A stretch of 49,312 nucleotides of DNA from an uncultured Pelagibacteraceae bacterium (GCA_902551445.1 CACDDB010000004.1:1-49312); one strand, 5' to 3'. Numbered from the stretch's first letter, positions 2,276 through 24,077 are shown. Translations and numbers: made by a program. The notes: generated by a model not told the origin, from the sequence alone.

Positions 2276-3229
2276 TTACATTTTATAGATTTTGTTACTT
2301 TTGTACCAATTATATACTTTAAAAATTTGATTTTTTATTTTTTTAAATTTGCTAAACGAAATTGTTTTTTTTAGTTTTTTATTATCTCCATGAGTTTTCA
2401 AAATGTCAGCTTTATGTTTGTTTATCAGCTTAATTTTAACTGGATATTTGTTATTAAAATACTTGGATATTTTAAGAATATTTTCTGGTTTATTTGAGCA
2501 AACATTGTATACTTCATTTTTTTTCGTTTTTTTTAAAGAAAGTTTAAAAACAATTTCACATGCATCTCTTACATAAGTAAAGTCTCTTAAGTGATTTCCA
2601 AAGTTGTTTATTTGAAATTCCCTATTAGTGAATGATGATTTAAATAATTTAAACAGAAACATATCTGGACGTCCAAATTCTCCATATATGGTAAAAAATC
2701 TTAGACCCACAAATTTGATATGTGTAATTTTACTATAAGTCTCTGCCATTTTTTCATTAAGCATTTTTGTTACAGCATATATATTTTTTTGATTAAGTTT
2801 ATGTGTTTCTTTTGATGGAAAATTCTTACTATCTCCATAAACTGAACTAGATGAAGCATAAATAATTTTATTAATGTTGTTTTTTTTTGCGGCAAAAATA
2901 ACATTCATAAATCCATTAAGATTTACATTTATATATTTTTTAGGATTTATAATTGAGTATCTAACACCTGCTTGAGCAGCCATATGAATTATCATATTTA
3001 TTTTTTTGTTTTTAACAAAATTAAATAGAGCATTTCTATTTGTAATATCAATTTTTTTAAAATAAAATTTTTTATTTTTTTTTAATTGTTTTATTCTAAA
3101 TTTTTTTAATTTAATGGAATTAAAATCATCATAATTGTCTATTCCATATATAGTATTTTTCTTATTCAGAAAGTGCATAGAAATATTTGTTCCTATAAAT
3201 CCTGCGGCTCCAGTTACAAGTATTTTCAT
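2276..3229 (-). CDS. NAD-dependent epimerase/dehydratase, UDP-glucuronate 4-epimerase-like
   Basis: GAAGFIGTN Rossmann motif, HMAAQAGVRYSI, YAVTK catalytic YxxxK, RFFTIYGEFGRPDM. Confidence 0.85.
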   Translation of the reverse strand: MKILVTGAAGFIGTNISMHFLNKKNTIYGIDNYDDFNSIKLKKFRIKQLKKNKKFYFKKIDITNRNALFNFVKNKKINMIIHMAAQAGVRYSIINPKKYINVNLNGFMNVIFAAKKNNINKIIYASSSSVYGDSKNFPSKETHKLNQKNIYAVTKMLNEKMAETYSKITHIKFVGLRFFTIYGEFGRPDMFLFKLFKSSFTNREFQINNFGNHLRDFTYVRDACEIVFKLSLKKTKKNEVYNVCSNKPENILKISKYFNNKYPVKIKLINKHKADILKTHGDNKKLKKTISFSKFKKIKNQIFKVYNWYKSNKIYKM

Positions 3230-4053: not shown

Positions 4054-4986
4054 TTAAATAAATAAATTAATTAAATCTCTAAAATTTTTTTTTGGGTAAA
4101 CCTTAATTATTTTTTTTAATTTAGAAATATCTGCATAATTTTCTTTAATATCAAATTTTCTAAATAATTTTTTGTCTACTTTGATATATTTTTTATAATT
4201 TAATTTTTTTTTGTTAAAAAATAATTTTATTATTTCATTCAATTTAATTGAATGGCCAGTTGCCAAAACATAATCTTCAATTTTTTTATTTTGCATAATT
4301 TTATATAAAATGTTCATATATTCTTCGCTATAGCCCCAATCTCTTATAATGTTTAAATTACCAACATTAATTTTTTTTGAATAATCTTGTTTTTTTAGAT
4401 AATTAGAAATTTTTTTAAAAATAAATTTTTTGTTTCTTAATGCAGACTCATGATTAAAAAATATTATTGAAAATACTGGCAAATTAAACATTTTTCTGTA
4501 TGATTTAATTACCTCAAGGCCAATAAATTTTGATAAGGCATATGGACTTTGAGGTTTTTTTTCGCTTGTTTCATTAAGTTTAATTTTTTTTTGACTGCCA
4601 AAAATTTCACTTGAAGAGCTAAACATAAATTTAGATTTATGTTTTTTTTGGTTTTTTATGAAATCTAAAATTATGCTAAGGGGAAATATTTGAGAATCAA
4701 AAGTCTGATACTCAAGTTTTTTATATGATTCTATTACGCTTGTTTGACCGCCTAAATAAAAAATAAATTTATAATTATTTTTCAATATATTGCTTAAATT
4801 TCTATATTTACTATTAATTTTATATACTTTAACTTTATTAGATATATTTAGAAATTTTAGATTTTTATCCCAATTTTTATATTTTCTTGATATTCCATGG
4901 ACAACAAATTTTTTTTTTAAAAATAGATTTGCACAATATGAACCGTCTTGTCCAGTAATTCCGTAAATTAATATTTTTTTTTTCAT
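4054..4986 (-). CDS. Divergent GDP-mannose 4,6-dehydratase-like NAD-dependent sugar dehydratase/epimerase
   Basis: YGITGQDGSYCANLFLKK, FSSSSEIFGSQ, SPYALSKF, FFNHES and RDWGY match the Gmd pattern but are diverged from the clear gmd at 16292-17326. Confidence 0.75.
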   Translation of the reverse strand: MKKKILIYGITGQDGSYCANLFLKKKFVVHGISRKYKNWDKNLKFLNISNKVKVYKINSKYRNLSNILKNNYKFIFYLGGQTSVIESYKKLEYQTFDSQIFPLSIILDFIKNQKKHKSKFMFSSSSEIFGSQKKIKLNETSEKKPQSPYALSKFIGLEVIKSYRKMFNLPVFSIIFFNHESALRNKKFIFKKISNYLKKQDYSKKINVGNLNIIRDWGYSEEYMNILYKIMQNKKIEDYVLATGHSIKLNEIIKLFFNKKKLNYKKYIKVDKKLFRKFDIKENYADISKLKKIIKVYPKKNFRDLINLFI

Positions 4987-5714
4987 TAAATTGACTTTTT
5001 AAATAGGATATCGCAATGATCTATTTTGGGTTCTTCTGAATTTGCAAAACCTTTATTTTTTAAAATTTCTTTTATCTCTATCCAATTTGCAGAATTGCCT
5101 GAGTAAAATTTTTTTTTACTTATTTCAATAACCATACTTTTACAGTATTTTAATGATTTATCAGCACCTTTTAAAAATTGTGCTTCAGCCCCTTGTAAAT
5201 CCACCACCCAGTGATTAAAATTTTTTAAATTAATATTATATTTTTCAACAGCGTTATCTAAAGTAATCATATTTAATTTAATTTTATCAACCATTTTAAC
5301 ATCATGCTCTTTCCACAAGTCTCCTTTTTTAACTTCATCTGATAAATCATATATAGACGAACAAGAAGAATCTTTATTTGATATAAAAAAATCAACCTCA
5401 TTTAAATTTTTATCTCCTAGAAGCAAATTCAAAGCACTTTGTTTATAGTATAATTTAATATTATCATTTAAATCTTCAAAAATTACCGGGTTTGCCTCTA
5501 TCCACAAAACTTGTTTATTAAACCAATTATATACTATGCTTTCTTTTCCTCTATGCGCACCGAAATGCAAAATTCCATTTGACTCCAATATGCAATTAAT
5601 TTCTTCTATATTTGGTTTTTGATGAACAAATGATTTTTGTGTCTTCTGAATTTTTATTAATTTCCAATCAAAGTACCTTAAAATTTTTTTTAGTATTTTT
5701 TTAAGATATTTCAT
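4986..5714 (-). CDS. FkbM-family methyltransferase
   Basis: LHFGAHRGKE, VLWIEANPVIFEDL, HWVVDLQGAEAQFLKGADKSL. The ORF track start at 5837 overlaps the upstream gene; the internal ATG at 5714 (MKYLKKIL) removes the overlap. Confidence 0.78.
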   Translation of the reverse strand: MKYLKKILKKILRYFDWKLIKIQKTQKSFVHQKPNIEEINCILESNGILHFGAHRGKESIVYNWFNKQVLWIEANPVIFEDLNDNIKLYYKQSALNLLLGDKNLNEVDFFISNKDSSCSSIYDLSDEVKKGDLWKEHDVKMVDKIKLNMITLDNAVEKYNINLKNFNHWVVDLQGAEAQFLKGADKSLKYCKSMVIEISKKKFYSGNSANWIEIKEILKNKGFANSEEPKIDHCDILFKKSI

Positions 5715-5718
5715 TAAT

Positions 5719-6789
5719 TTAAATACCCCCAAATTTTTTTGGTAGTATTTTTTTAATGTACCAGTAAAATTGTGATAAAATAATATTTTTTGAATTAAAA
5801 CCATTGTCAATTTCAAATCTTTGTTGATTTTTTTCAATATTATAACCTATTGCCGCAGAACTAACGTTTGAACAAAGATAAATAAAGTATTTACAGCTAG
5901 ATAAAAGCATTGCTTCTATAATAGCTTCTCTACCAAGCTTATATCTATGCAAATTTCTTGGATATATTTTGAAAGCATCATTTTTATTAGATCTATAAGA
6001 AGACTTTAAATAAATTAATTTTTCTCCATATTTTTTTTTAAAAAAATCCAAATAATTTCTCTCTTCTGTCACTAGAAAGATTTTATCTATATGATAATTT
6101 TTTAATAATTTATTAGTCATTTCATACATTTGTTTTTTTGTTGCTGGCAAAGGATGTCCTGGAGATCTTTTATAGCTTGTTCCTCTAAAATGAATACCAA
6201 GTATTTTTTTATTTTTAAATTTTTTTAATGCTCTTAAATAACATTTACTCATATACTTATTTATTTTAATTTTCGTATTTAATAATTCAATTAACTCGTT
6301 GTCTTTATCAATATTATAAGAAAAAAAATGAAAGAATTTATTATCTGTTATTAAGACATGCTTACTATTATAAACTTCACTTAAAGAATATTCATTTAAA
6401 TTATCAAAATAATAATTCCAAGCATTAAAGTTATTTTTAAATTTTATACTTTCATTATAAATCGTACTAAAGTTTTCCATATCAATAATAGGTATAAAAT
6501 TATATTTTTTACATATTTTAAGATGATTTAATATAAATGTTATATTTGAAAACATTCCGGTTCCAGGTGTTCGTTTAATTACATAAAAAATTTTATCTTC
6601 ATTTAAATTTCCAAATGTTCTTTGTCTAATATTCAATTTTTCTAAAATTTTAAAATCTATTTTATTATTGAGAGATGTTTTGTCTTCATAAGAAACATCA
6701 TATAAGTCAAAATTGTTCTTTACATTTTTTAAAATACTCGGTGTTTGTAATGTGAATTTAGTAATTAGTTTTCTAATTAATTTTTTCAT
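5719..6789 (-). CDS. Fucosyltransferase-like protein (O-FucT/NodZ-like fold)
   Basis: KKILGIHFRGTSYKRSPGHPLPATKKQM, IFLVTEERNYLDFFKKKYG, LGREAIIEAMLLSSCKYFIYLCSNVSSAA resemble the fucosyltransferase GDP-sugar region; recognised by motif only. Confidence 0.55.
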   Translation of the reverse strand: MKKLIRKLITKFTLQTPSILKNVKNNFDLYDVSYEDKTSLNNKIDFKILEKLNIRQRTFGNLNEDKIFYVIKRTPGTGMFSNITFILNHLKICKKYNFIPIIDMENFSTIYNESIKFKNNFNAWNYYFDNLNEYSLSEVYNSKHVLITDNKFFHFFSYNIDKDNELIELLNTKIKINKYMSKCYLRALKKFKNKKILGIHFRGTSYKRSPGHPLPATKKQMYEMTNKLLKNYHIDKIFLVTEERNYLDFFKKKYGEKLIYLKSSYRSNKNDAFKIYPRNLHRYKLGREAIIEAMLLSSCKYFIYLCSNVSSAAIGYNIEKNQQRFEIDNGFNSKNIILSQFYWYIKKILPKKFGGI

Positions 6790-10839: not shown

Positions 10840-11055
10840 ATGAAAAAACTTTTTTTACTATTTTTTAGTTTAATAGTGTTTATGCTGACGACTTCTAAAA
10901 GCTTTGCATATCTTGATCCAGGAACTGGCAGTATCATTTTACAAGCTATCTTAGGTTTTATAGCTGCCAGCATTGCAACTTTGACCATATATTGGAATAA
11001 ATTTAAAAATTTCTTTACAAAAATTTTTGGTAAAAAAGATAAAAAAAATAAATGA
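10840..11055 (+). CDS. Small membrane protein with signal/TM segment and YLDPGTGS motif
   Basis: MKKLFLLFFSLIVFMLTTSKSFAYLDPGTGSIILQAILGFIAASIATLTIYWNKFKNFF; ATGA overlap with the next gene. Confidence 0.75.
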   Translation: MKKLFLLFFSLIVFMLTTSKSFAYLDPGTGSIILQAILGFIAASIATLTIYWNKFKNFFTKIFGKKDKKNK

Positions 11056-12431
11056 TTTTTGATAAAGGCTCTTTTAGAGACCAAGCTGGTAAAATTTTTT
11101 ATTTAAATAACAAAGTATATAGAATCATTACAAATGAAGGTTCCGAAAGACTAAAATTTTTAGAAGAAAATCAAATAATCGAAAAATCAATTAAGGATAA
11201 TTATTTAATAAAATCTAAAGTTGTTAGCAATAATATAATTAATGAAAGTCTTTCAAAAAATGAAATAGTTTATGAACATGAAAAAATTCCATATATTTCA
11301 TATCCTTATGAGTGGTCTTTTTCTCAATTAAAAGCTGCTGCGTTACATCATCTAGAATTTCATTTATATTTATTAGATATAGGTGCAAATTTAATTGATG
11401 CTTCGGCTTACAATATTCAATTTATTGGAAACAAACCCATATTTATTGATTTATTATCTTTAAAAAAATATGAAGAAGGTGAATACTGGATTGGACACAA
11501 ACAGTTCTGCGAAAATTTTCTTAATCCTCTAATTCTTCAATCAAAAAAAGGTGTTTACTTTAATAATTGGTTTAAAGGAAATTTAGAAGGAATAAAAACT
11601 GAGGATTTAAATAATATATTAAGTTTTAAAGATAAGTTATCCTATAACATTTTTATACAGGTGTATTTATTAAATAAATTTGATCAAAGTTCTAAAAAAT
11701 CAACTAAAAAATTTAAATCAGACTTTAAAAAAAAATTTTCAAAAAAAAGCTTTTATGCACTATTAAGGCAAATTAAAAATTTTATTAAAAGTCTAAAGCC
11801 AAAAAAAAATAAAACAATTTGGGAAGACTATTCTCAAAATAATACTTACGATCAAAATGAAGAAATAAAAAAAATTGAATGCGTCTCAGAATTTATTAGT
11901 AAAAATAAATTTCAAATATTATGTGATTTAGGTTGTAATAATGGCTTATATTCTACATTAGCACTTGAAAAAGGAACTAAAAAAGTTGTTGGCTTTGATT
12001 ATGATATAAATGCAATTGAAGAAGCTTACAATATGTCGAAAAGAAAAAATTATAATTTTCTTCCTCTTTATCTTGATGCATCCAATCCAAGTACTAGAAT
12101 TGGATGGAATGAAAGTGAGAGAAAAAGTTTTAAAGACAGGGCAAAATTTGATTGTGTTTTGGCTCTAGCCTTTGAACATCATTTGAGTTTAGCAAAAAAC
12201 ATTCCTTTGGAGGAAGTATTAGAATGGATCATATCTATAGCACCAAAAGGGTTAATTGAATTTGTTCCAAAAAATGACCAAACAGTCCAAAAAATGTTAG
12301 AAATAAAAGGAGATATTTTCCATGATTACACTGAAGAGAATTTTGAAAAATACATAAGAAAAAATGCAAAAATAATTACAAAAAAAAATATAACTAAATC
12401 AGGAAGAAAAATATATGAATATGAGAGATAA
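11052..12431 (+). CDS. Two-domain protein: NoeA-like N-terminal region (possibly kinase-like) plus C-terminal SAM-dependent methyltransferase
   Basis: N-terminal LLDIGANLIDASAYNIQFIGNKPIFIDLLSLKKYEEGEYWIGHKQFCENFLNPL; C-terminal CDLGCNNGLYSTLALEKGTKKVVGFDYD and CVLALAFEHHLSL. Confidence 0.72.
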   Translation: MIFDKGSFRDQAGKIFYLNNKVYRIITNEGSERLKFLEENQIIEKSIKDNYLIKSKVVSNNIINESLSKNEIVYEHEKIPYISYPYEWSFSQLKAAALHHLEFHLYLLDIGANLIDASAYNIQFIGNKPIFIDLLSLKKYEEGEYWIGHKQFCENFLNPLILQSKKGVYFNNWFKGNLEGIKTEDLNNILSFKDKLSYNIFIQVYLLNKFDQSSKKSTKKFKSDFKKKFSKKSFYALLRQIKNFIKSLKPKKNKTIWEDYSQNNTYDQNEEIKKIECVSEFISKNKFQILCDLGCNNGLYSTLALEKGTKKVVGFDYDINAIEEAYNMSKRKNYNFLPLYLDASNPSTRIGWNESERKSFKDRAKFDCVLALAFEHHLSLAKNIPLEEVLEWIISIAPKGLIEFVPKNDQTVQKMLEIKGDIFHDYTEENFEKYIRKNAKIITKKNITKSGRKIYEYER

Positions 12432-13845
12432 TTTATTAATTATTTTTTCTTTTTTTCCTGTTTTTCTATTTAGATCTAATTTTACGACAAATGAAATTAT
12501 ATTTATTATAATATTTTTATTATTAATTTTACTAGTCCTGATTCAACTAAATAATTATTTAGAAAAAAAAAATGTAAAAAGTATTCAAATTCTTTTTTTT
12601 TGTTTTGTGATTACTTATGGAATAGATAATCATTTGGGATTGTATAACGGTTTAATTGCACCTTATGTAGATGATTTAAAAATTTTTAGAATTATTTATA
12701 TTCCAGCAATAATATTACTTATTATAATTTTTTTATTAAACTTTCTTTTATTTAAATACTTTAAAGATAAGCAAAAAATTTTCACAATTATTTTTGTTTT
12801 CATAACAACATTATTTGTATTTAATATTTTTGATAATTCAAAATCATTCAAAAAAATTCCTAATATAATTAAAAAAACTGATTATAAAACAAAATCAACA
12901 GATTTAGTTTTAATTTTAGATGAAATGTCTGGCTTAAATTCCATTGAAAGCAAAACATTGTCTGGTAAGGAATTTGTTGGTTTTGCAGAAGAATTTTTCC
13001 AAAAAAACAATTTTGAGTACTATCCTAATGCATACTCAATATCTGATAATAGTATTAGCGCAATTACCTCAATGGTTAATTTTAAAAGTAGCTTTAATGA
13101 AAAAGACAGAAAAAAATATGTAAATAAATCAAAAAATTATTTTATTGAATTTAATTTATTAGAGTCAAAGTTATTTGAAAAATTTGAGTCAATATCTGTT
13201 TTTCAAAATATGCATATTAATTTTTGTCAACTACCCAATGTAGTAAAATGCCACCAATTCAATCCTTTCAATTCATATGAATTCTTAAATGGATTTAAAG
13301 ATAATTTATTTACAAAATATTTTTCCATATGGAGTTTAAATGGCTCAGTATTTGGGAAACTTTTTTGGAGATTTGGTAAGCAGATAAGGTTATCAGATTC
13401 TTTAATTGAACCTGAAGGTCAAAAAGCAACTATTAAGAAAACTTTTAAAGATATAAAGCAAGATGTATTTTCAAACAGATTTGATTTAATATTTGTGCAT
13501 ATATTATTTCCTCATACTCCATTTGGACTAGAAAAAAATTGTAAATATTCAGGTAAGCTAAGCAATATGAATAATTTTTTTAGCAAAGATAAAAAAGTTG
13601 AACTACACAACATTGAAAGAAAATGTGTTTTAATTTTCCTAAATCAATTTATGAAAACTATAGAGAATAAAAATGACTTGAGAATAATTTTACTTTCAGA
13701 TCATGGTTCAAGGATTTATAATAAACCAGAAAGCTCTAACTCAATAATATTAGCTACTAAAAATATAACCGACAAAAAATTCATCAAAAATGATTCAAAA
13801 ATTTCATCACAGGAAAAATTTTTTGATCTATATGGCAAACAATAA
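12415..13845 (+). CDS. Membrane-anchored sulfatase/phosphoethanolamine-transferase-like protein (alkaline phosphatase superfamily)
   Basis: Several N-terminal TM stretches; DLVLILDEMSGLNSI, YPNAYSISDNSISAITSMVNF, FVHILFPHTPFG, RIILLSDHGSR. Start overlaps the upstream gene by 17 nt. Confidence 0.7.
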   Translation: MNMRDNLLIIFSFFPVFLFRSNFTTNEIIFIIIFLLLILLVLIQLNNYLEKKNVKSIQILFFCFVITYGIDNHLGLYNGLIAPYVDDLKIFRIIYIPAIILLIIIFLLNFLLFKYFKDKQKIFTIIFVFITTLFVFNIFDNSKSFKKIPNIIKKTDYKTKSTDLVLILDEMSGLNSIESKTLSGKEFVGFAEEFFQKNNFEYYPNAYSISDNSISAITSMVNFKSSFNEKDRKKYVNKSKNYFIEFNLLESKLFEKFESISVFQNMHINFCQLPNVVKCHQFNPFNSYEFLNGFKDNLFTKYFSIWSLNGSVFGKLFWRFGKQIRLSDSLIEPEGQKATIKKTFKDIKQDVFSNRFDLIFVHILFPHTPFGLEKNCKYSGKLSNMNNFFSKDKKVELHNIERKCVLIFLNQFMKTIENKNDLRIILLSDHGSRIYNKPESSNSIILATKNITDKKFIKNDSKISSQEKFFDLYGKQ

Positions 13846-14631
13846 ATGAAGTCATCTATACTTATTACGTCATTTAATAAAGGTCAGTATATAGACGAAT
13901 GTATACTCTCTTGTATAAACCAAGATTATGCAGATGATGCAGAAATTTTAGTTTTAGATAATTATTCAGAAGATAATTCAGATCAAATATTTGCAAAATA
14001 TAAAGACAAAATAAAAGTATTTAAAAAAAAAAGAGTAAGTATATATCCCGCATTAAATCAAATAGATTTGATTAAAGAAGGACTAAGCATTAGTAATGGA
14101 AATTTAATTTATTTATTAGACGGTGATGACTTTTTTTTAAAAAATAAATTATTAAATGTAAATAATATTTTTAAAAAAAATCCTAATTTAGAAGTAGTAT
14201 ATGATACATCTTTAAAAAAAAGAGGAAATAAACTTTCTACTTATGAAATTAAGACAAAACTAAATAAAAATGTTTGGCCTTCAATAATTAATACTAGTTC
14301 TATATCAATCAAAAAAGAATTTATTTTAGAAATTCTAAATAAAAAATTATTTGATGATTTTAATCTTTTAGAAATAGATTTCAGAATAAACGTTTATTCA
14401 AGAAATATAAAAAAAAATTATATTATCTCCAAAGATGCTTATACAGTTTATAGGCAACTTGACGATTCAATAATGGGAAATATTAAAAAATATTCCTCAA
14501 AATGGTGGCAAAAAAGAAAGCAAGCTCACGAATTTATGAAAATTATGTATTTAAATAATGGCTTGGAATACCATAATAAATTGGATTTTTTATTAACAAA
14601 TTTTATAAACAAATTTATTAAAACTAAGTGA
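13846..14631 (+). CDS. Glycosyltransferase family 2
   Basis: SSILITSFNKGQYIDECILSCINQDY, ILVLDNYSEDNS, GNLIYLLDGDDFFL; starts immediately after the upstream stop codon. Confidence 0.85.
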   Translation: MKSSILITSFNKGQYIDECILSCINQDYADDAEILVLDNYSEDNSDQIFAKYKDKIKVFKKKRVSIYPALNQIDLIKEGLSISNGNLIYLLDGDDFFLKNKLLNVNNIFKKNPNLEVVYDTSLKKRGNKLSTYEIKTKLNKNVWPSIINTSSISIKKEFILEILNKKLFDDFNLLEIDFRINVYSRNIKKNYIISKDAYTVYRQLDDSIMGNIKKYSSKWWQKRKQAHEFMKIMYLNNGLEYHNKLDFLLTNFINKFIKTK

Positions 14632-16271
14632 AATTATTAATATTCATATTATTTTATATTTTACTTACATTTTCAATTGTTGGTTATGGAATGTTATTAA
14701 GAAAATTTGTTGGACAAAACAGTACAAATTGTATTGGTTATTCAGGTATTTATGGAATTTTTTTTATAACATTTATTTCATATTTTATAAATTATTTTAT
14801 CCCAATTTTTGGATTAATTAATATTTTTATTCATTTCTTTGGATTTATTTTGTTTTTCTATTTTTATAAAAAAAAGTTTTTATTTACCAATAATGAATTA
14901 GCTTTATTATTTGTAGTAATTCTATTTTCTTTTTTATTTATATTAAGTGCCAAACCGCATGATGATTTTTCATATTATCATTTTCCGTACATTAATATGT
15001 TAAATAACGATAGTCTTCAAATTGGAATAGGAAATTTTAACCATGGATTTAGAACACACTCTTCAATTTTTTATTTTTCATCAACATTTTATTTGCCGTT
15101 AATCAATTATGAGTTAATTCATTTAGGATCAGCATTTTTTTTAATTTTTTCTAATTTAATATTATTAAAAAAATTAACTATAGATAAAAATAATTATAAC
15201 AAATTTATATTAATTTTAAGTGTTTTATCTTTTGCATTATTAAATATTTTTTTCTATAGAATTGGAGAACATGGAGTTGATAGATCAGCTCAAATTTTAA
15301 TCATATTGTTAATTATAGAAATGTTTATAATTTTTAATTTTAAAAAAATAAAGTTAAAAAATATTACTGATTTAATAATATTAATTATTTTATCGGCTTC
15401 ATTAAAACCAATATATTTCATCTATTTCTTATTTTTTTTTCTATTTATTTATTATAGCAGAAAAAAATTAGCATTCATTCTAGAAGTAATTAAATCTAAA
15501 ATTTTTGTGTTATCAAATATATTTATACTTTTTGTAATATCTGTAAATTTTTTAAATTCTGGTTGTTTAATATATCCTTTGGCATTTACTTGTTTTGATA
15601 ATTTTATATGGTCAATACCAATTGATCAAGTTAATCAAATGAATCAACATTATAATCTTTGGTCGAAAGCTGGAACCACTCCTAATTTTCAGGTTACCAA
15701 CCCAGAAGAATATTTAAAAGATTTTAAATGGGTTTCTAATTGGCTTGATCTTTATTTTTTTAATAAAGTTTCAGATTATTTATTAGGCTTATTAATACTT
15801 TTATTATTTGTTTTTTTAATACTATTTAAATCAAACAATAATAAATTTGTATTTATAAAATATTTACCAGTATACTTGGTAATAGTAATTTGCTTTTTAG
15901 AGTGGTTTTTAAATCATCCCGCATTAAGATATGGAGGTTATCATTTAATAGCTTTATTATTTTTTATTCCTTTCTCAATCTATTTATCACATAAAACTTT
16001 TAATCATAATAAGATGAGCAAAAAGATTTTTTTAGTTATAATTTTAATATTTTCAATTTTTGTAGTTAGAAATATTCAAAGAATATCAAAAGAGCATCAA
16101 GCGTATGATTACAATTTATTTATCCACCCATCATTTGATAAAAAATTTGAAAACTATTCCATATATTCAGGAATAATTGATGCAAAGGGTTGCAATATAA
16201 ATAATTGTAATAAAGAAGGAATAGCTTCTAAAAAATTCATGAATAAATTCATTTTTATTATTAATCAATAA
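14628..16271 (+). CDS. Polytopic membrane protein, possibly GT-C-type glycosyltransferase
   Basis: GTG start overlapping the upstream stop (GTGA); many hydrophobic segments; early SAKPHDDFSYYHFPYINM loop with acidic residues resembling GT-C first loops. Confidence 0.55.
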   Translation: MKLLIFILFYILLTFSIVGYGMLLRKFVGQNSTNCIGYSGIYGIFFITFISYFINYFIPIFGLINIFIHFFGFILFFYFYKKKFLFTNNELALLFVVILFSFLFILSAKPHDDFSYYHFPYINMLNNDSLQIGIGNFNHGFRTHSSIFYFSSTFYLPLINYELIHLGSAFFLIFSNLILLKKLTIDKNNYNKFILILSVLSFALLNIFFYRIGEHGVDRSAQILIILLIIEMFIIFNFKKIKLKNITDLIILIILSASLKPIYFIYFLFFFLFIYYSRKKLAFILEVIKSKIFVLSNIFILFVISVNFLNSGCLIYPLAFTCFDNFIWSIPIDQVNQMNQHYNLWSKAGTTPNFQVTNPEEYLKDFKWVSNWLDLYFFNKVSDYLLGLLILLLFVFLILFKSNNNKFVFIKYLPVYLVIVICFLEWFLNHPALRYGGYHLIALLFFIPFSIYLSHKTFNHNKMSKKIFLVIILIFSIFVVRNIQRISKEHQAYDYNLFIHPSFDKKFENYSIYSGIIDAKGCNINNCNKEGIASKKFMNKFIFIINQ

Positions 16272-20075: not shown

Positions 20076-20969
20076 ATGAAGAAAAAAAACATAATCTTAG
20101 TAATAGGTGGCGCGGGATTTGTAGGTTCTAACCTAATAGAGTTTTTTTTAAATAAAACAAACTATAAGATAATTAGTTATGACAACTATTCTACAGGAAA
20201 AATTAAAAATCATATCAAAAATAAAAGAGTAAAATATTTAAAAGAACATACAAAAGATATATCAAAAAAAATAAATAAATTTAAAAATAATATTGAATCC
20301 GTATTTCACTTTGGTGAATTTGCAAGAATTTATCAAAGTTTCTTAAAAATGAATGAGTGTATAAATTCTAATACTATTGGAACTAATGCGGTATTTAGAT
20401 TTTGTATGGCAAATAAAATTAGATTAATTTATTCAGCTACTTCAGCCAGTTTAGGAAATCGAGGGTCTGACAAAGATCTATCACCATACGCATTTACTAA
20501 AGCTAAAAATCTAGAAATGTTAGAAAATTTAAAGAAGTGGTTTGGATTTAAATACGAGATTATTTATTTTTACAATCTCTATGGACCCAGACAAATTTGT
20601 GAAGGTGAAATGGCAACTGTAATCGGTATTTTTGAAAAACTTTTCAAAAAAAAAAAACCAATAACAGTTGTTAAGCCAGGTACACAATCAAGAAGATTTA
20701 CTCATATTGATGATGCGGTTAGAATTTGTTTTGAAGCATGGAAAAATAAAAAATCTTTGCATTACAGTATTTCACATAAAAAAGTTTATACTTTAATAAA
20801 TGTTGCGAAACTATTTAGTAATAAAATTAGATTCTTACCAAAAAGACCTGGTGAAAGATATGCATCCGCATTAACGAATATGCATTTATCAAATAAAGTA
20901 CATAAAAGATTCGGAAAGATTGATCTCAAAGACTATATTGAAAAATTTAAAAAAGAAAATAATCTTTAG
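20076..20969 (+). CDS. NAD-dependent epimerase/dehydratase (UDP-glucose 4-epimerase-like)
   Basis: LVIGGAGFVGSNLIEFFLNK, SATSASLG, SPYAFTKAKN, YFYNLYGPRQ, RRFTHIDDAV. Confidence 0.85.
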   Translation: MKKKNIILVIGGAGFVGSNLIEFFLNKTNYKIISYDNYSTGKIKNHIKNKRVKYLKEHTKDISKKINKFKNNIESVFHFGEFARIYQSFLKMNECINSNTIGTNAVFRFCMANKIRLIYSATSASLGNRGSDKDLSPYAFTKAKNLEMLENLKKWFGFKYEIIYFYNLYGPRQICEGEMATVIGIFEKLFKKKKPITVVKPGTQSRRFTHIDDAVRICFEAWKNKKSLHYSISHKKVYTLINVAKLFSNKIRFLPKRPGERYASALTNMHLSNKVHKRFGKIDLKDYIEKFKKENNL

Positions 20970-22198
20970 TTTAAGTCCTTTAAATTTCTTAAAGCAATTG
21001 AATAATTTATCCAAAACAATGTCGCTGTATAAGTTGTAAATAAACTTCCAGATGGTAACAAAGGAAGAATGCTTGCAAAAATAAATAATGTTGAACCAAA
21101 AGCATAAACATCATTATTTTTTTTATATTTTTTATAACATTTAAGTAAAAAGAATATAAAATAACTAATAAACAAAAAATATCCAATAATTCCAAGCTCT
21201 GAAATTAATTCAAAATGTATTTGATGAGGATGTGTTGAACCGCATGCATACCATTTTCCGTCATCTATTGGGTGTGCATAGTCATCTTTCCAGCTTTCTT
21301 GTCTATATTTTTTTATTCCAATTCCAATGATTGGATTTTTTTTAAATATTTCTATCGCAGTGTTGTAATGGCAAAAATGTTTACTTTTTGCTGGACTAAA
21401 TTCTATAGTTAAAAGATTTATAGTAGAATCAATAAATTTATTTTTAAATACATCATTGGTGTAAATAAAAACTGAAGCAATCATAATTAAGACAAAACTA
21501 AAAATGATTTTTTTATATTTTGAAATATTATCAACGAGGAAGAAAAAAATAAAACTGATAAATAGTATTTTTATATAATTTGATCTTTCACCAATGAGAA
21601 GTGATGTGATTAAGAAAATTATAAAAAATACATAATATGCTTTATTATTAATTTTTTTTATAAAAATTGTAGAGAGTAATATAAAAGCAAAATAATAACC
21701 TCCTATTTTTAATTCTTCACCAGTAAATCCAGCAAGTCTACCATAATAAGGTGATTTAAATTTTAAAGTATTATAACCAAAGATATGTTCAAAAATTAAA
21801 TCAATCGTTACCACTACAAATATAATTGTCCAAGCTTTAAAAATAATTTTTTCGTATTCTTTGTTATTAGTATTCAAGTAATAATATATTGCATATGCTA
21901 ATACTATATATCTTAAAAATCCAATTGCTCTAGTTAAACTATCAGCATCAATACCAGTCATTAGAGAGTTTAAAATTAAATAAAGATTAAAAATAATTAA
22001 AAAGTAAAAATTCTTTTCTTTTAAAAAAAAAAATTTTTTATCTTTAAAACAATCAATTAAAAAAAAAATAATAATTAATAGAATGTTTAAATTAATAACT
22101 GTAGAACCCATTAATAGAGAAATTGGTAAGAAAAAAATAAGATATATATTTTTATTTTTTATAGATATAAAATCGACTAAATTTAAGGGTAAGTTCAT
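20966..22198 (-). CDS. O-antigen ligase/polymerase-like membrane protein (WaaL/Wzy type)
   Basis: Polytopic membrane protein with LLIGERSNYIKILF and NPIIGIGIKKYRQ...THPHQIHFELISELGIIGYFLF signature. Confidence 0.85.
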   Translation of the reverse strand: MNLPLNLVDFISIKNKNIYLIFFLPISLLMGSTVINLNILLIIIFFLIDCFKDKKFFFLKEKNFYFLIIFNLYLILNSLMTGIDADSLTRAIGFLRYIVLAYAIYYYLNTNNKEYEKIIFKAWTIIFVVVTIDLIFEHIFGYNTLKFKSPYYGRLAGFTGEELKIGGYYFAFILLSTIFIKKINNKAYYVFFIIFLITSLLIGERSNYIKILFISFIFFFLVDNISKYKKIIFSFVLIMIASVFIYTNDVFKNKFIDSTINLLTIEFSPAKSKHFCHYNTAIEIFKKNPIIGIGIKKYRQESWKDDYAHPIDDGKWYACGSTHPHQIHFELISELGIIGYFLFISYFIFFLLKCYKKYKKNNDVYAFGSTLFIFASILPLLPSGSLFTTYTATLFWINYSIALRNLKDLN

Positions 22199-23961: not shown

Positions 23962-24077
23962 GCCTGGTAATTATTGCGAAAGTGTAATACCCGATCCCAT
24001 TCCGAACTCGGAAGTCAAGCCTTTCTGCGCCGATGGTACTTTGTCTTAAGACATGGAAGAGTAGGTCGTTGCCAGGC
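23962..24077 (+). rRNA. rrf: 5S ribosomal RNA
   Basis: gcctggtaattattgcgaaagtgtaatacccgatcccattccgaactcggaagtcaagcc...gccaggc: closed terminal helix (GCCTGG/CCAGGC) and conserved CCCGATCCCATTCCGAACTCGGAAGTCAAGC core. Confidence 0.96.

Follow-up and report, generated by a model that had tools for sequence, protein, structure and literature searches.

A small membrane protein regularly adjoins genes for NoeA- and NoeB-type proteins in SAR11 and other bacteria

Results

Gene content and genomic setting

The stretch of DNA analysed here (the window, 49,312 nucleotides of an uncultured Pelagibacteraceae bacterium, GCA_902551445.1 CACDDB010000004.1:1-49312) carries five consecutive + strand genes at 10840-16271. 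These encode a small membrane protein of 71 aa (SMALL, 10840..11055; ORF, profile, alignment and dN/dS), a 459-aa NoeA homologue (11052..12431; 42% identity to NoeA and invariant catalytic residues), a NoeB-type protein of 476 aa (12415..13845; hhalign, BLASTP, predicted structure and Foldseek), a GT2 glycosyltransferase abutting this triad (13846..14631; PF00535, E 3e-17), and a polytopic membrane protein of 547 aa (14628..16271), which was assigned to the LIC_10190 family (NF047510) with 105.1 bits against a cut-off of 100. The original prediction had described the five genes as joined, in order, by a 4 nt ATGA overlap, a 17 nt overlap, a 0-nt gap and a 4 nt GTGA overlap, and ORF listing and sequence agree with it. 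Also present as described are the peptide AYLDPGTGSIILQ and the DASAYNIQF...IFID region, a SAM-methyltransferase domain and, in the 476-aa protein, membrane segments combined with an alkaline-phosphatase-superfamily domain. Scans for repeats and promoters revealed none distinct from the AT-rich background.

Tightness alone is little evidence for a unit, because the genome is compact and has many short overlaps; further 4-nt overlaps occur in the window at 3226/3229, 30212/30215, 34018/34021, 37348/37351 and 41324/41327. Indeed, the proposal of a five-gene unit had to be given up: L030, the nearest relative found, is the only locus in which the GT2 and 547-aa membrane protein genes come after the triad, the GT2 position in L035 is taken by another gene of the GT2 family, and LIC_10190-type homologues elsewhere stand apart from the triad (e.g. 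in L019). The conserved module consists of the first three genes only, and both the GT2 gene and that of the polytopic protein lie outside it. That all five genes might still serve a single pathway would fit their tight overlaps and the identical five-gene set in L030, but since the last two do not follow the triad in other loci we regard this as extremely improbable.

The module is situated in an island that extends to ~23.9 kb of the window, with a GC content of 21-23% as opposed to 26-31% beyond, and that contains glycosyltransferases, a GDP-mannose dehydratase and an O-antigen-ligase-type protein. These surface-glycan genes support the envelope/glycan context that had been suggested for the locus. 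SAR11 genomes are known to possess a hypervariable surface-polysaccharide region adjoining the 5S rRNA; in the window, the O-antigen-ligase-type (Wzy_C) gene (20966-22198) and a 5S rRNA (23963-24077) close the low-GC island. The assignment of the window to SAR11 is based on its nearest matches among named records, which are Pelagibacteraceae throughout except for one titled Acidimicrobiaceae.

The small protein

As predicted from its sequence, the small protein possesses a signal peptide with cleavage between SFA and YLDPGTGS, a single TM segment and a Lys-rich tail, and thus displays all putative traits of its family (signal peptide, Ala followed by a mature N-terminus of the form Y-x-D/G-P-G, one TM, basic tail). 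No Pfam or NCBIfam family scored above cut-off, and weak matches to AtpR, Renin_r and the like were rejected as noise from the TM segment. The ORF is a real gene under purifying selection: dN/dS (NG86) amounts to 0.07-0.29 in five SAR11 pairs, ~0.23 between Sinorhizobium and Rhizobium, and 0.14 between the window and L030, with substitutions mostly at third positions.

Among 54 non-redundant small proteins, collected with a motif pattern that requires Tyr and Pro, the motif reads Ala (53) or Ser (1), then Tyr, any residue, Asp (41) or Gly (13), and Pro. An unconstrained alignment of 31 small proteins likewise has Y24, P27 and G28 invariant, and the Tyr is also found in three proteins from a second phylum that the pattern had missed. 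In two second-phylum proteins almost no residues precede the Tyr (for L116 the start nearest to the motif was assumed), so that in either case the motif is close to the N-terminus. A search of the open literature, which misses most subscription journals, yielded no paper on the YLDPGTGS motif or the small protein, and the protein itself appears to be undescribed.

The NoeA homologue

A plasmid search with the kinase-methyltransferase (KMT) of the window led to NoeA of Sinorhizobium. With 191/459 identical residues (42% over 459 columns, E 1e-137) to NoeA of S. meliloti, the 459-aa protein is, judged by its sequence, a full-length NoeA homologue. It comprises a kinase-like domain (residues ~1-265, with R24, D116, N121 and D133) and a C-terminal class I SAM methyltransferase domain (~266-459, with D292, G298 and H376/H377). 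D10, R24, D116, N121, D133, S136, D292, G298, H376 and H377 are invariant in 38/38 aligned NoeA-type sequences, so that the predicted NoeA-like kinase/methyltransferase is supported by full-length homology, a kinase signature and the methyltransferase. In the AlphaFold2 model (pLDDT 90.7) the order of strands and helices is kinase-like, and D116-x4-N121-x11-D133 together with the surrounding strand order matches a protein-kinase catalytic loop.

In the structural check that had been proposed for a kinase-like fold, the best 50 Foldseek matches to the model concern the methyltransferase half only, and the assignment of a kinase fold therefore draws on the order of motifs, on secondary structure and on PMC9758233. 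The methyltransferase domain has structural matches in the PDB that include WbdD; by sequence, PDB searches with the whole protein gave weak methyltransferase matches only. The replacement of Lys by Arg in the kinase signature has already been reported for the NoeA family in PMC9758233. The NoeA homologue is a candidate kinase and methyltransferase.

The NoeB-type protein

On the basis of hhalign (probability 99.1 over 298 columns) and BLASTP (E 3e-16), the 476-aa protein is classified by sequence comparison as a remote homologue of NoeB. Its N-terminal TM helices are followed by a periplasmic alkaline-phosphatase-superfamily domain (D169, S213, H362, H367, D429, H430), and its model (pLDDT 92.4) matched sulfatases, EptA and MCR-1 in Foldseek; by sequence, the PDB contained no match. 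The alignment of metal and Ser/Thr sites called for by the original prediction revealed that the ligands of the superfamily are kept and that the nucleophile is Thr or Ser: in 36 NoeB-type sequences, D429 is invariant, D169, H362 and H430 each differ in one and H367 in two, and column 213 holds Thr in 25 and Ser in 11. The catalytic residues of this domain, like those of the methyltransferase, are therefore intact.

By contrast, 'sulfatase-like' as a statement of activity was not confirmed. The formylglycine signature that type I sulfatases carry at the nucleophile, Cys/Ser-x-Pro/Ala-x-Arg, is absent in 35/36 sequences, and the lone match (SFPDR in L086) lies outside the T/S213 stretch; sulfatase activity was accordingly rejected. 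With a Thr/Ser site and no such signature, the NoeB-type protein looks, from its sequence, like a phospho-transferase or hydrolase.

Recurrence and gene order

A small protein occurs within 2 kb of a NoeA-family gene in 37/39 loci examined, which comprise the window, 25 loci on GTDB contigs, 8 from a phylum sample, 4 from the second phylum and 1 from S. meliloti, and which belong to Pelagibacterales, Rhizobiales, other Pseudomonadota and the second phylum. Both exceptions (L053 and L054, the latter at a contig end) are divergent NoeA relatives. Within the order (147 genomes), KMT was found in six genomes, i.e. the window's own, four with full-length relatives and one in which a short stretch matched weakly (residues 240-329, E 3.8e-4) and which was left out of the counts; the window and all four full-length relatives have a small protein and a NoeB-like protein adjoining KMT. 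These four recur among the 25 KMT loci of the GTDB contig scan, 23 of which have a small protein, and were counted once. In a sample of 398 Pseudomonadota genomes, KMT occurs in 9 and the small protein in 22, and in 9/9 KMT genomes the two lie within 2 kb of each other on one contig (hypergeometric P ~1e-11, with the own genome left out and relatedness not corrected). Similarly, 198 genomes from the phylum to which an Ignavibacteriaceae genome belongs yielded four full-length KMT loci, all of which contain a small protein and three also a NoeB-like protein. Profile search and gene neighbourhoods in two phyla thus bear out the prediction that the small protein recurs together with its two partners, beyond close relatives. 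Relatives were not found in IMG/VR.

The observed gene orders include small-NoeA-NoeB, small-NoeB-NoeA, NoeB-small-NoeA and NoeA-NoeB-small, and strands vary too, which argues that the link between small protein and NoeA is not the mere inheritance of one block. NoeB is absent beside NoeA in L031, L092 and L114. In L029 (6126-7796), a NoeB-like protein carries a small-protein domain as an N-terminal fusion, and L032 (3970-7383) has two small genes, one before NoeB on the - strand and one before NoeA on the + strand. The KMT of L035, a record titled Acidimicrobiaceae MAG, is 60% identical to the SAR11 KMT, and this contig is possibly mis-binned.

A second subtype of the small protein

Asp-type and Gly-type small proteins separate by partner. 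The Gly-type (YxGPG) loci (L093-L095, L097-L104, L027 and L028) have an arylsulfotransferase (PF14269) nearby in 13/13 cases, 12 within 14 nt and one at ~1.9 kb, and KMT or NoeB in 0/13, whereas none of the Asp-type loci contains an arylsulfotransferase. The small protein of the former belongs to the same family as the YLDPGTGS protein, with Gly in place of Asp in the motif, and a PF13469 sulfotransferase is often present. In the 398-genome sample, 11 of the 20 genomes with an arylsulfotransferase have a small protein on the same contig; the arylsulfotransferase profile used was built from 11 of the Gly-type loci, while the Pfam naming of those genes is independent of it.

Discussion

Relation to the nodulation genes

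The module has a close counterpart in the nod-box n5 operon of S. meliloti, where all three proteins are encoded in identical order and the small one has the YLDPGTGS motif as well. There, on pSymA, nodL is followed by a gene for a 71-aa hypothetical protein, then by noeA and noeB; the unnamed ORF between nodL and noeA (MPIIMSVVGFLILSIVPAHAYLDPGTGSMLVQ...) is homologous to the small protein of the window and was matched in 61 plasmid records, all from Sinorhizobium, Ensifer or Rhizobium. Rhizobium sp. T136 has the same order, with the last two proteins named only methyltransferase and sulfatase-like protein. The window differs in that its NoeB-type protein is shorter and ~20% identical, in the location of the locus in a SAR11 surface-polysaccharide island, and in the absence of nodL beside the module, where the upstream gene encodes a GT4-type glycosyltransferase (PF00534).

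A study of 1995 reportedly found Nod factors unchanged in noeA or noeB mutants, which argues against assigning a definite target to NoeA and NoeB. The accessible literature contains no established activity for either protein, and the accessible main text of an S. meliloti ribosome-profiling paper mentions neither noe nor nodL. According to its title, the 1995 study (Ardourel et al. 1995, cited in PMC9758233) found both genes to be required for nodulation of particular Medicago hosts, and a noeA truncation has been linked to a nodulation-deficient strain (PMC4053727). In Legionella, Lani_1194 is described as a NoeA homologue with kinase and methyltransferase and Lani_1195 as a NoeB homologue, and homologues of Lani_1193 lie alongside in 65% of 816 neighbourhoods (PMC9758233). 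Lani_1193 may be the small protein; the accessible main text of that paper is silent on its nature, and mentions neither SAR11 nor a link to arylsulfotransferases.

The locus can therefore not be called an undescribed system as a whole: NoeA and NoeB are already known by name as host-range genes in S. meliloti, and the kinase-methyltransferase nature of NoeA, the fold of NoeB and the conservation of their neighbours were published in 2022 (PMC9758233). What is new, as far as can be told, is the small protein as a constant partner, its two subtypes, and the presence in SAR11. The small gene would be an overlooked member of the nodulation operon in a tractable laboratory symbiont.

Possible function of the module

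We regard the three genes, with a probability of roughly 0.5, as the SAR11 version of a NoeA-NoeB module with a constant small third member that decorates a surface glycan. NoeA, in the cytosol, would phosphorylate and then methylate a glycan intermediate with its two successive domains, as WbdD caps an O-antigen. The periplasmic domain of NoeB, resembling those of EptA and MCR-1, would use its Thr/Ser nucleophile to transfer or remove a phospho-type group on the exported glycan. The small protein may span the inner membrane once, with YLDPG at its mature N-terminus in the periplasm and its basic tail in the cytosol, and could hold NoeA and NoeB at the same membrane site.

This reading is suggested by the homologues of NoeA, NoeB and the noeA-adjacent ORF in the order of the S. 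meliloti operon, by the small protein adjoining 37/39 NoeA genes in two phyla with shuffled orders and strands, by the fusion in L029 and the paired small genes of L032, by the D116-N121-D133 geometry and kinase strand/helix order, and by glycan genes in the window's island and around a NoeA relative in L053. The absence of NoeB beside some NoeA genes (L031, L092, L114) and of the small protein in L053 and L054 counts against it.

Two known systems offer partial likenesses. WbdD of the E. coli O9a O-antigen likewise combines a kinase and a methyltransferase in a single protein, and the methyltransferase domains match structurally. However, the sequences are remote and the domain order is opposite: WbdD has its methyltransferase domain before its kinase domain, plus a coiled coil, while the kinase-like domain of NoeA is N-terminal. 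In L053 (2224-6805), the gene for the NoeA relative overlaps that for a Wzt ATPase bearing a Wzt_C domain; an ABC-2 membrane subunit is encoded upstream, and an aminotransferase and a glycosyltransferase downstream. This is the setting in which WbdD works. The phosphoethanolamine transferases EptA and MCR-1 share N-terminal membrane helices, a periplasmic alkaline-phosphatase-superfamily domain and a Thr/Ser nucleophile with the NoeB-type protein, albeit at 12-13% identity and a TM-score of ~0.4.

Alternatively, NoeB could act hydrolytically, as a phosphatase or phosphodiesterase, and trim a glycan or lipid that bears phosphate, the module then removing the final group. The PDB matches of its model, mostly hydrolases (sulfatases), and its PF00884-like family would agree with this, but the Thr/Ser nucleophile and N-terminal TM helices fit the transferases EptA and MCR-1 as well, and pairing with a kinase-methyltransferase would better suit the assembly of a decoration; we consider such trimming rather unlikely. 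The S. meliloti operon nodL-small-noeA-noeB and the treatment of NoeA and NoeB as probable Nod-factor modifiers (PMC9048898, PMC9758233) point instead to a small secreted signal, such as a Nod-factor-like lipo-oligosaccharide or other metabolite, as the substrate in place of the envelope. That substrate is improbable given a NoeA relative in a Lentisphaeria O-antigen transporter locus and the module in marine SAR11. To our knowledge, SAR11 bacteria are free-living and lack nod genes.

Finally, the small protein might be a covalent acceptor, with a phosphoryl or sulfuryl group placed by a partner enzyme on the invariant Tyr that begins the mature chain. The Tyr is present in 54/54 motif sequences (Ala at -1 in 53/54) and in the three pattern-missed second-phylum forms, and the sister subtype pairs with arylsulfotransferases, a class acting on phenols. 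The count of 54/54 is by itself circular, since the pattern requires Tyr (though the independent 31-sequence alignment has it invariant), location at the membrane interface would account for a conserved Tyr just as well, and NoeA has its active sites in the cytosol, so that this role appears very unlikely.

The occurrence of the NoeA/NoeB pair and its constant small partner in SAR11 as well as a second phylum speaks for a general modification of surface glycans in place of a role confined to symbiosis, and suggests that the 'nodulation' pair belongs to a machinery for decorating cell surfaces in general, whose third component had been overlooked. It is conceivable, if rather doubtful, that the small YLDPG/YxGPG proteins serve generally as membrane subunits or covalent carriers in two classes of periplasmic group-transfer systems that are unrelated to each other, with the Asp-type serving NoeA/NoeB (phospho/methyl), the Gly-type arylsulfotransferases (sulfuryl), and the invariant N-terminal Tyr possibly being the carried site. 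In L087, a PEP phosphomutase gene (4737-5885) lies directly upstream of the triad and hints at a phosphonate group in that genome.
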